The position numbers and the translations under genes were made by a program. From Haloglomus litoreum (GTDB lineage: Archaea; Halobacteriota; Halobacteria; Halobacteriales; Haloarculaceae): a stretch of DNA of 64,000 nt. Of the stretch, positions 37,312-60,033 are shown piece after piece. The stretch spans positions 4,216,001 through 4,280,000 of the forward strand of contig NZ_CP119988.1 in NCBI RefSeq assembly GCF_029338515.1, in the 5' to 3' direction. The notes beneath the pieces are model-generated. The model had not been told where the DNA came from. It did no database searches and saw nothing but the letters and a program-made list of their open reading frames with translations. The stretch's first letter is position 1, and each line of letters opens with the position of its first letter.

Positions 37312-38166
37312 CTACACCCGGTCAGGGAAGACGACCTGACTGTCGGCCGTCAACGCGAGCGACACCCGTCCCTGGTACCAGCTCGTCGCGGCCGCCCGAA
37401 TCCGAACGCGTTCGCCCTCATCAATCAGCGGCTGCCGACTCTTGGCCCAGATGGTCAACTTGACGCGACCCGTCTCATCCTCCAGCAACCCGACTTGCTG
37501 GATTGCGCTGTTCGAGGGCGTCCAATCCTCGATCCACTCACCCTCCACTGAGACCTCCTTCCGGGGCACGTCTTCCAGCTCCCCGATCGGCACGACCGTC
37601 CCTGCACGTCGGCGCTCCGCGTCCAGCACGTCCAGCGTCGCTTCGGTGATATCCTGCCCCCGAGCGACCCGTTCGGCCAACTGTCGGCTGATGGCCGCCC
37701 GACTGCCGCATTCGCGCACCGTCTCCTGAATCCGCTGCGCTTGCTGGTTGACCTCCGCCAGGGTCGCCCCATCCAATTTCTCACGCGGGTCCGCGCTCTC
37801 GGGGCCGGCCAGCGAGTCCACGCTCGCCCGTCGCCGGGCGAACTGCTCGCGCTCGCGCCGACTGCCACGTGCCGCTGCCACTCTGGCGGCCGCCTCGCGC
37901 CGCTCGGTGACGGGACCATCCGTTCGCGCCCGCGTCCGGGCCTTCTCCTGCTCACGCGCCTCCCACTTTTCCTCCGCGACGAGCGTCATCCCGTACGGGT
38001 GCTCACGCTCGGCCGTCCCGTCGACCTTCGCGATCGCCTCCGAATCGATCTTCGCCTGCGACCGCAGCTCCACCGTCGGGCGCAGCTCCGGTTCCTCCTC
38101 AACCGTCTGCTGTTCGTCCTCCGATTCGACTGAAACCTTTTCCGCGATTACGTTGTAACTCGACAT
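37312..38166 (-). CDS. OB-fold (RPA-like) nucleic-acid-binding protein
   Basis: A 284-residue protein. Residues 1-130 are very acidic and then Arg-rich (REQEKARTRARTDGP), the middle is helical, and the last 90 residues form an OB-fold: VPRKEVSVEGEWIEDWTPSN, VGLLEDETGRVKLTIWAKS and GERVRIRAAATSWYQGRVSL, the pattern of RPA-like DNA-binding proteins on haloarchaeal elements. The ATG at 38166 (MSSYNVIAEKVSV) is supported by an inverted repeat 21 bp upstream. It probably binds ssDNA during element replication or transfer. Confidence 0.75.
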   Translation of the reverse strand: MSSYNVIAEKVSVESEDEQQTVEEEPELRPTVELRSQAKIDSEAIAKVDGTAEREHPYGMTLVAEEKWEAREQEKARTRARTDGPVTERREAAARVAAARGSRREREQFARRRASVDSLAGPESADPREKLDGATLAEVNQQAQRIQETVRECGSRAAISRQLAERVARGQDITEATLDVLDAERRRAGTVVPIGELEDVPRKEVSVEGEWIEDWTPSNSAIQQVGLLEDETGRVKLTIWAKSRQPLIDEGERVRIRAAATSWYQGRVSLALTADSQVVFPDRV

Positions 38167-39125: not shown

Positions 39126-39189
39126 GCCGGGAGCACACACCGAAGAACACACGGCTCGCGCTCGGCCCAGCACGGGACCGGGTGGGACT

Positions 39190-39285
39190 GAAAGGGGCCA
39201 GTCGCTCGCCCCGGTGCGACGACGCAAGCACCGCAGCCTGCGAGGCGCGCAGCGAGTCACACCGGGCGAGCGACTGGGGGCTTTC
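39190..39285. ncRNA. Structured element S, copy 1 (strand not known)
   Basis: Outer stem GAAAG (39190-39194) pairs with CTTTC (39281-39285); a symmetric GGG/GGG mismatch follows (39195-39197 and 39278-39280); then 14 pairs link CCAGTCGCTCGCCC (39198-39211) with its complement (39264-39277). The loop holds CGACGCAAGCACCGCAG. Copy 2 at 58681-58787 keeps the same plan with compensatory base changes. The preceding GGGACT is also shared. It could be an RNA or a folded single-strand DNA signal. Confidence 0.55.
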
Positions 39286-58560: not shown

Positions 58561-58680
58561 ACTGCCCGAACGTAACCGATTGGAAAGTTCCCGAGAGCCA
58601 CCTGAACGGACCAGCAGCCGACGGCACAACCCGCCAGCCACCCCACACCGCGACCGCCGATTCCTGAACCGGGCGGGACT

Positions 58681-58787
58681 GAAAGGGGCCGGTCGCTCGA
58701 CCCAGCCCCGGCGACGGAAGCACTGCAGGGAGCGAAGCGACTGAAGCGCACAGCGAGCCGCGGCTGGTCGAGCGACCGGGGGCTTTC
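58681..58787. ncRNA. Structured element S, copy 2 (strand not known)
   Basis: GAAAG (58681-58685) pairs with CTTTC (58783-58787); then the GGG/GGG mismatch; then CCGGTCGCTCGACC pairs with its complement GGTCGAGCGACCGG (ending at 58779). Against copy 1 the inner stem has A-T to G-C and C-G to A-T changes that keep pairing. The loop keeps GCGACGGAAGCACTGCAG. It ends 26 bp before the stop of the primase gene (minus strand). Confidence 0.55.
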
Positions 58788-58812: not shown

Positions 58813-60033
58813 CTATCCCCACGGAAGCAAGCGATCCCACCAGCCCGCCTCGGACGACTCGGCCGACGCCTGCGCCGCTTCCAGTTCTTCACGCCGGGCT
58901 CGTTCGGCCTCGAGGTCGGCCTGCAACTCCGCCTTCTCGGCCTGCAACTGCTGCAGTTCGGCCTCCAGGTCCTCGACCACACTGACTGGCACAGTCGCCT
59001 CGGCCGACGTCCCACCACCGTCCGCCCCACCGGTGCCCGAGTCCCCACGCCCCGACGCCGTCCCACTCAACCCGGAGCTCTCGGACCCGCCACGGGAACC
59101 GGTGTAGAACTCGTCGGTCCCGGCGATGGCCCGCTCGATCGTCCGCTCGCCGTAGGTCGCCCCGTCCGCGAAGTGCTGTTCGTCCCACTTTGGCCGCATC
59201 AGTCCGGACTCGCGGAACAGCCGGTCCAGCTGTTCGGCATCCCCGCCGGTCCAGAACGCCAGCAACGAACACAGGGCCATATCCGCCTCCGACTGACTCG
59301 GATAGCCGTCCATGTTGCCAGCATAGAGCCGCTCGAACTTCGCGCCGTTCGTCGCGCTCCGAGCTCGCGACAGGAGTTCCTCGTCACCGAGGTCGTTCCC
59401 CGGGCCGCCCACAGCACCGGTCGGCGCCGTTCCGTCATCGTGCGACGCCATAGCCGCCGTGCTCTCGGCGTCATCGCTCGCCCCGTCGCTCCCATCGTCC
59501 TGGGCGACGTACTCCGCGTGGACTGCCGTGAGCGCGTCCTGACGGGCCGCGAGTCGCGAGGGGGGCTCGGACAGCTCGTCGCCGGTCACGGTGAAGAAGC
59601 GAGCGTCGTCGTACAGCTCGACGTCCCCGTGTCGGTTCCGGCCGTCGGGCAACTCGCCTTCGACCAGCACGTGGACGCCGGTCCCGGAGGGCGAAACCTC
59701 CGTGTACGAGTCGAGGCGGGCGACGATGTCCCGGGCCCAGTCGGTGAGGGTCCCGTCGTCGGGGTCCCGACAGTCGTCGAGATCCACGCCGACGATCGGG
59801 TCGGCCGCGGTGAACACGAACCCGACCCCGGTCGCACTGTCGGTGGCGTACGCGCGAGCCGTCGCGAAATCCGTCCACGTGTCGGGGTCGGTTGCGGAGG
59901 CGTACGTGCCGGTCGTCGGATCGACCGGAACCTTCGTCGGCTTGCCGCTGCGGTCCTCCGTTCGCCAGGCCACCCACTGCTCCCGCGTCACCAGCGGTGC
60001 CGGGAGGGCCTTGGCCGTCGGTAATCCACCCAT
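58813..60033 (-). CDS. Mobile-element primase/PrimPol-like protein
   Basis: A 406-residue protein. The N-terminus (EQWVAWRTEDRSGKPTKVPV, then VGFVFTAADPIVGVDLDDCR) is the archaeo-eukaryotic primase/PrimPol-type pattern common on haloarchaeal plasmids and viruses. Candidate metal ligands are Asp84/Asp86 (D-L-D-D) and S-G-T-G-V-H with His121. Residues 230-290 form a helical extension (DMALCSLLAFWTGGDAEQLD). The C-terminal 50 residues are a coiled coil (LEAELQQLQAEKAELQADLE). No helicase motif is present. ATG 60033 (MGGLPTAKALPAP) is used; a TATA-like GATTTATG lies about 35 bp upstream. It probably primes element replication with the upstream repeat region. Confidence 0.75.
   Translation of the reverse strand: MGGLPTAKALPAPLVTREQWVAWRTEDRSGKPTKVPVDPTTGTYASATDPDTWTDFATARAYATDSATGVGFVFTAADPIVGVDLDDCRDPDDGTLTDWARDIVARLDSYTEVSPSGTGVHVLVEGELPDGRNRHGDVELYDDARFFTVTGDELSEPPSRLAARQDALTAVHAEYVAQDDGSDGASDDAESTAAMASHDDGTAPTGAVGGPGNDLGDEELLSRARSATNGAKFERLYAGNMDGYPSQSEADMALCSLLAFWTGGDAEQLDRLFRESGLMRPKWDEQHFADGATYGERTIERAIAGTDEFYTGSRGGSESSGLSGTASGRGDSGTGGADGGGTSAEATVPVSVVEDLEAELQQLQAEKAELQADLEAERARREELEAAQASAESSEAGWWDRLLPWG

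Follow-up and report, generated by a model that had tools for sequence, protein, structure and literature searches.

The hairpin element S, of which two copies lie in the stretch of 64,000 nucleotides analysed here (hereafter the window), is probably one half of a mobile repeat of the Halobacteria that resembles the REP/REPIN elements (or BIMEs) of bacteria. The unit usually comprises two divergent S hairpins, whose 5' ends face each other across a spacer, and short tails; the preferred spacer length is 24-35 bp in several genera and 78-84 or ~272-330 bp in Haloglomus. Most likely, each hairpin is recognised when the GGGACTG strand of the DNA is single-stranded, as it is, for instance, on the lagging strand. 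The hairpin comprises a foot (GGG-Y-GGG-ACT), an outer stem (GAAAG/CTTTC), a strictly kept GGG/GGG core, a long stem free in sequence and constrained in pairing, and an apical domain. Neither the core sequence nor REP elements of haloarchaea led to a haloarchaeal or otherwise relevant paper among those listed in a search of the accessible literature, where the family appears not to have been described before.

Both copies announced by the preliminary description, at 39190-39285 and 58681-58787, are indeed present; GGGACTGAAAGGGGCC and GGGGGCTTTC are common to them, as is a stem of 14 pairs. Directly 5' of the motif as it was then delimited stands an invariant GGG-Y-GGG foot (39180-39186 and 58671-58677), which the motif had left out. 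The features of the two copies and of the genes beside them are as follows.

39180..39285, + strand: element S copy 1 (GGG-Y-GGG foot and hairpin), from the sequence; R1 match at 39184-39285, 104.2 bits; RNA folding z -4.7
39180..39186, + strand: copy 1 GGG-T-GGG, G-tracts 1 and 2 with a pyrimidine linker of 1 nt, from the sequence
39190..39194, + strand: copy 1 GAAAG, 5' arm of outer stem P0, pairing with 39281-39285
39195..39197, + strand: copy 1 GGG, G-tract 3, opposite the GGG at 39278-39280
39198..39211, + strand: copy 1, 5' arm of stem P1, 14 pairs with 39264-39277, from the fold
39212..39263, + strand: copy 1, P2 and apical domain, CGACGCAAGCACCGCAG ... GAGGCGCGCAGCGAG, with the conserved A.A mismatch and AA/GCA internal loop, from alignment A1 and the consensus fold
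39264..39277, + strand: copy 1, 3' arm of stem P1, from the fold
39278..39285, + strand: copy 1 GGG (G-tract 4) and CTTTC (3' arm of P0), from the sequence
58671..58787, + strand: element S copy 2 (GGG-C-GGG foot and hairpin), from the sequence; R1 match at 58675-58787, 109.1 bits; RNA folding z -3.8
58681-58685/58783-58787 and 58689-58702/58766-58779, + strand: copy 2, stems P0 and P1, respectively
37312..38166, - strand: gene for an OB-fold DNA-binding protein (PF01336 at 9e-5)
58813..60033, - strand: gene for an NrS-1-type primase-polymerase of a mobile element (PF22763 at 8e-32)

None of 200 shuffles folded as stably as the RNA of either copy; folded as DNA, the copies score z = -4.7 (copy 1) and -3.6 (copy 2). 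The distance of 26 bp between copy 2 and the 3' end of the primase gene (58813) was correctly given at the outset. Copy 1 lies ~1 kb upstream of the start of the OB-fold gene, an arrangement also seen for plasmid copies of S, and the OB-fold protein of the window is 48% identical to the plasmid protein P0001. In other Haloglomus species, both copies recur together with the genes beside them: primase orthologues have S alongside in G001 (L180) and G002 (L223), and the OB-fold orthologue of G001 has S at the same place (L181).

The two copies belong to a large family. Searched with a covariance model of 60 diverse members, the window's Haloglomus genome gave 98 matches at E <= 1e-3, and exact cores missed by the model bring the family there to ~107 copies, the window pair included; a DNA search of the same genome with S found 48 places. 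The 16-mer GGGACTGAAAGGGGCC occurs there 47 times exactly, counting both strands, against 0 for a reversed control pattern, which together with the model matches excludes chance. Across the class, 77 of 145 Halobacteria genomes, from 37 of 59 genera, carry the 14-base core GGGACTGAAAGGGG (reversed control near zero), with up to 67 copies per genome and 0 in many other genomes; within one genus, the number of S copies ranges from 0 to 32. The matches listed from a collection scan are all haloarchaeal, 16 haloplasmids match, and phage and viral-contig collections gave no match. The family is dispersed genome-wide and class-wide and is not limited to the mobile-element gene set in which the preliminary description placed the two copies. 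The longest interval without S, 682 kb (G000:C1, 1.93-2.61 Mb), is improbable under random placement (p about 5e-4) and lies a long way from cdc6 (4.69 Mb).

The consensus architecture comprises the outer stem P0 (GAAAG/CTTTC), GGG opposite GGG, stem P1 of ~14 pairs, P2, and an apical domain, in which an A.A mismatch and an AA/GCA internal loop accompany the conserved AAGCACC...GGAGCGCAGCGAG. The preliminary description had read the compensatory changes in the inner stem as selection on pairing and had called for a covariation test and for further haloarchaeal copies; with the copies described above, selection on pairing is now supported. Among the 60 diverse copies, 25 of 32 predicted pairs, and 12 of the 13 aligned pairs of P1, show double-sided compensation; 94.5% of alignment cells pair, compared with 33-44% when the arms are slid, and sliding lowers the covariation score from 0.443 to no more than 0.07. 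The outer stem P0 changes as a whole (GAAAG/CTTTC 239 times, GGAAG/CTTCC 29 times). The GGG/GGG opposition, likewise noted from the first two copies, is kept in 269 of 271 distinct elements, and over 313 elements the foot reads GGG in tract 1 in 284 and in tract 2 in 308. At orthologous Haloglomus sites, the ends of S are kept, and the inner stem can be wholly replaced, apparently swapped between the members of a pair, or deleted.

Several variants of the hairpin were observed alongside. One subclass – mostly from Halorussus and Haladaptatus where the loci are named (L056, L074, L090, L118, L124, L127, L143, L145, L150, L156, L158 and L163) – has an unrelated apical domain (CTATT...AATATG) and keeps foot and core, so that the base of the hairpin emerges as the conserved part. 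Extra hairpins (TGGTTCGAGAGAGC...GCTCTCTCGTCATC...CGAACGACAG) are inserted into the apical domain of L012, L019, L022 and L202, always at the same place, and look like a second repeat that targets S. Three separate remnants (L035-, L037- and L212) have a common junction, GGGGCC-GGGC-GCTTTC, as expected for deletion of the hairpin at a microhomology. Downstream of several Haloglomus copies, the 3' end of S and its tail (GAGCGGGCGGGGGCTTTC AACAGGG...) are repeated in tandem, as if by slippage or repeated events (L013 2820-3300, ~75 bp apart; L014, L021, L035 and L041).

Covariation this strong, with strand-specific pairing, tolerated G.U-type pairs and internal-loop motifs plausible for RNA, would also suit a multi-copy structured non-coding RNA or an RNA element of 3'-UTRs acting after transcription. 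The preliminary description had named a non-coding RNA among its possibilities, and we now consider this unlikely. The Rfam search that it had recommended returned no relevant match (Rfam 15, at the gathering cut-off and at permissive thresholds). S falls outside predicted genes in 196 of 197 placements, by a simple codon-usage gene caller, and all four arrangements of flanking genes – tandem, convergent and divergent among them – are represented, gene orientation being random with respect to S. Where divergent 5' ends are 24-35 bp apart, there is no room for promoters, and any read-through transcript would include an antisense copy; a k-mer search for promoters of its own upstream of S found lineage-specific blocks and no common TATA box. 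The ~107 copies per genome speak against an RNA as well.

The two strands of S are not equivalent. In the first seven pairs of P1, G.T outnumbers A.C by 40 to 10 (p = 2e-5; 211 non-redundant elements), and of these 211 elements 109 have the apical motif GA-NC-GNA-GN'-GA on the GGGACTG (+) strand and 1 has it on the - strand. A duplex or cruciform would give equality on both counts; the acting molecule is therefore single-stranded and of the GGGACTG strand. RNA would also fit this bias, and single-stranded DNA is probably the active form; GNA triloops are very stable in DNA. The same asymmetry is not expected if S is instead a double-stranded or cruciform site for a nucleoid, segregation or replication-arrest protein that organises the chromosome. 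Many copies do stand at orthologous places within a genus, and their spread is non-random, 0.68 Mb (1.93-2.61 Mb) being free of S at p about 5e-4, as such a role would have it; yet the variation in copy number within one genus, the swapping or replacement of inner stems between orthologues and the recent movement of units described below leave this explanation very improbable.

Neighbouring S copies in the window's genome are strongly ordered: among those less than 700 bp apart, 28 are divergent (5'-5'), 3 convergent and 1 tandem, and the gaps of the divergent doublets cluster at 78-84, 272-279 and 305-331 bp. In other genera the gap is 24-35 bp, and in three genomes (G004, G104 and G114) most copies are doublets of this kind. 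The left partner in many of the wide Haloglomus pairs is a member of a second subclass, S2 (TGG-Y-GG-ACTC-GAAG-GG-CGA ... GAGGG-CTTC). The space between S2 and the partner of the first subclass (S1) is filled, in wide Haloglomus pairs, by a conserved block of ~170 bp (GGTTCCGAGACCAGGAAGCGCG ... GGGGAGGTGTGGGG ... TGGAACCACC), which is found upstream of S in L013 (2849-3010, for example), L014, L018, L020, L021, L029 and others, and which in L013 begins a few bases past a stop codon.

These doublets have moved recently and non-autonomously, as near-identical units at unrelated sites and near-empty orthologous sites show. Units of ~420-470 bp are 98.9% identical between L038 and L040, 94.5% between L172 and L178, 98.5% between L172 and L227, and 96% between L213 and L064; identity is 0.94-0.99 inside the unit and ~0.45 in the flanks. 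At the L040 site, a doublet within ~525 bp in the window's genome contrasts with ~37 bp in G002 and a single remnant in G001, and the unit at the L172 site of G001 is absent from the window's genome, while G002 carries a different doublet there. The intergenic DNA around the near-empty sites is too diverged to define exact joints or clean target-site duplications. Many other copies occupy orthologous positions within the genus, so that the family combines mobility with long retention. Terminal inverted repeats, a feature of MITEs, were seemingly visible by eye but failed a shuffle test, the left and right ends of nine units being no more alike than shuffles. The suggestion of a transposon end was right in part: the doublets have moved, but as whole small units and not as the ends of a known IS, and they have no significant terminal inverted repeats.

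Since the ~420-470 bp units contain no gene, they must presumably be moved by an enzyme encoded elsewhere. RAYT and IS200 proteins share the Y1 transposase fold, and in Archaea the IS200 subclass is the only one reported among Y1 proteins, RAYT being without report there (PMC6006769). Y1 (HUH) transposases were rejected as the mover, as their genes do not track the copy number of S: no Y1 match was found in G005 (14 S copies, 99% complete) or G029 (62 copies, 81% complete), G000 has one, and several S-free genomes have Y1 as well. The same observation weighs on the idea that S doublets are degenerate IS200/IS605 elements, or PATEs, moved by a Y1 transposase. Haloquadratum has many such elements, which carry near-terminal palindromes and lack inverted repeats (PMC3119063), and the IS200/IS605 mechanism does rely on recognition of a single-stranded DNA hairpin. 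However, the hairpins of S are far longer and stand in divergent doublets, and among the neighbours of S no Y1 gene flanked by it was seen, so we give this origin little credence.

When proteins encoded beside S (~150 loci) were examined for enrichment, the OB-fold gene of mobile elements alone stood out. On plasmids of Haloprofundus, Halomarina and Haladaptatus, this gene and a beta-propeller gene flank S. Of 20 further genomic regions with the OB-fold gene, about half have S or S2 upstream of it and the rest gave no S match; S or S2 precedes the gene even in two genomes that lack GGGACTGAAAGGGG (L272 of G077 and L276 of G111). Just upstream of the plasmid OB-fold gene, several genera also have a near-identical perfect inverted repeat of 17-19 bp (GCGCGCTCTCGCTCGCGCC) with a loop of 17-18 nt, possibly a regulatory or replication site (L261 335-390, L265 360-414, L268 2402-2457 and L269 337-387). 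The plasmid OB-fold protein was rejected as the mover: it is absent from the S-rich G114 and G029 and present in the S-free G135, G085, G009 and G025. This distribution, together with the OB-fold upstream regions that have no S match, makes it a distant prospect that haloarchaeal plasmids and integrated elements use S, together with the NrS-1-type primase and an OB-fold partner, for priming or single-strand initiation, the chromosomal copies being strays – for all that S adjoins the primase gene in the window and in G001 and G002, and that many genera have S or S2 ahead of the OB-fold gene on plasmids and elements. The earlier proposal of a replication or transfer signal may hold for the copies on mobile elements, where S is upstream of the OB-fold gene in many haloplasmids, and leaves ~100 chromosomal copies unexplained. 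Under the reading of S as a REP-like mobile repeat, its retention at fixed places – orthologous chromosomal sites and the region upstream of the plasmid OB-fold gene – suggests that some copies have been recruited for a host or plasmid role.

The two G-tracts in the foot and the two opposed in the stem may together form a G-quadruplex within the hairpin. In S1 (271 elements), the first three tracts are 3/3/3 and opposed to GGG, giving four conserved tracts of equal length; in S2 they are 2/2/2 in 26 of 26 elements, and a C-G pair forms the third stem layer. That all tracts lose one G together suggests a quadruplex, as would be expected of stacked tetrads, and judging from these tract lengths we put the structure forward tentatively, with the balance of probability against it. 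Since the covariation of the tracts separates just two subclasses, it may represent only one evolutionary event, and the joint shortening could reflect such an ancient event, or joint recognition by a protein, instead. The high internal potassium of haloarchaea would favour a quadruplex. Hairpin-linked G-tracts are also known from quadruplex-duplex hybrids and from the pilE G4 of Neisseria, a site of DNA recombination; S differs in being a dispersed repeat whose tract length covaries between subclasses, and its quadruplex is putative. Hundreds of evolved sequences with a conserved, possible hairpin-quadruplex core make in vivo selection of G-quadruplexes in prokaryotes directly testable, and in genetically tractable haloarchaea. 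The accessible portions of published work on archaeal G-quadruplexes (PMC7565180, PMC12873603) describe no such repeats. In its fullest form, S would be the first archaeal REPIN-like system, a single-stranded DNA hairpin with a built-in G-quadruplex – of three tetrads in S1 and two in S2 – moved by an enzyme other than RAYT and recruited by host and plasmids; we think this combination possible, though improbable.

Among known haloarchaeal repeats, the IS605-derived PATEs of Haloquadratum (PMC3119063) are, like S, non-coding, mobile, palindromic and without terminal inverted repeats, but the palindromes of PATEs are near-terminal and related to IS605 ends, whereas S forms a central divergent doublet; by the description of PATEs, S stands apart. 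SMR-A of Haloquadratum (PMC3119063) is likewise a small repeat, of ~110 bp and with up to 54 copies; for SMR-A no target duplication is reported. Its copies are >95% identical and insert into PATEs or IS605, whereas those of S are highly divergent, conserved at their ends and intergenic, and the description of SMR-A sets S apart as well. The closest likeness is to bacterial REP, REPIN and BIME elements (PMC3116915), which are also short intergenic palindromes of high copy number, non-autonomous and with covarying stems, have a conserved foot followed by a hairpin whose mismatch is likewise conserved, and form inverted doublets with preferred spacing and two sub-types in mosaics. S differs in being archaeal and in its hairpin of 100-125 nt, compared with 20-40 bp in bacterial REPs (PMC3733652). 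Its foot is GGG-Y-GGG-ACT, where bacterial REPs have GTAG (the tetranucleotide GTAG/CGTC is not found in S), and its core is GGG/GGG; bacterial REPs and REPINs are linked to RAYT (TnpA-REP), whereas Y1 genes do not follow the copy number of S. S would thus work in the manner of REP/REPIN elements while departing from them in two features, the foot sequence and the RAYT link. It offers a clean natural test of how structured single-stranded DNA may be recognised and mobilised without RAYT, and Halobacteria appear to carry REP-like mobile repeats undescribed in the accessible literature, at ~100 copies per genome at most, in a domain from which REP/RAYT systems were thought to be absent.
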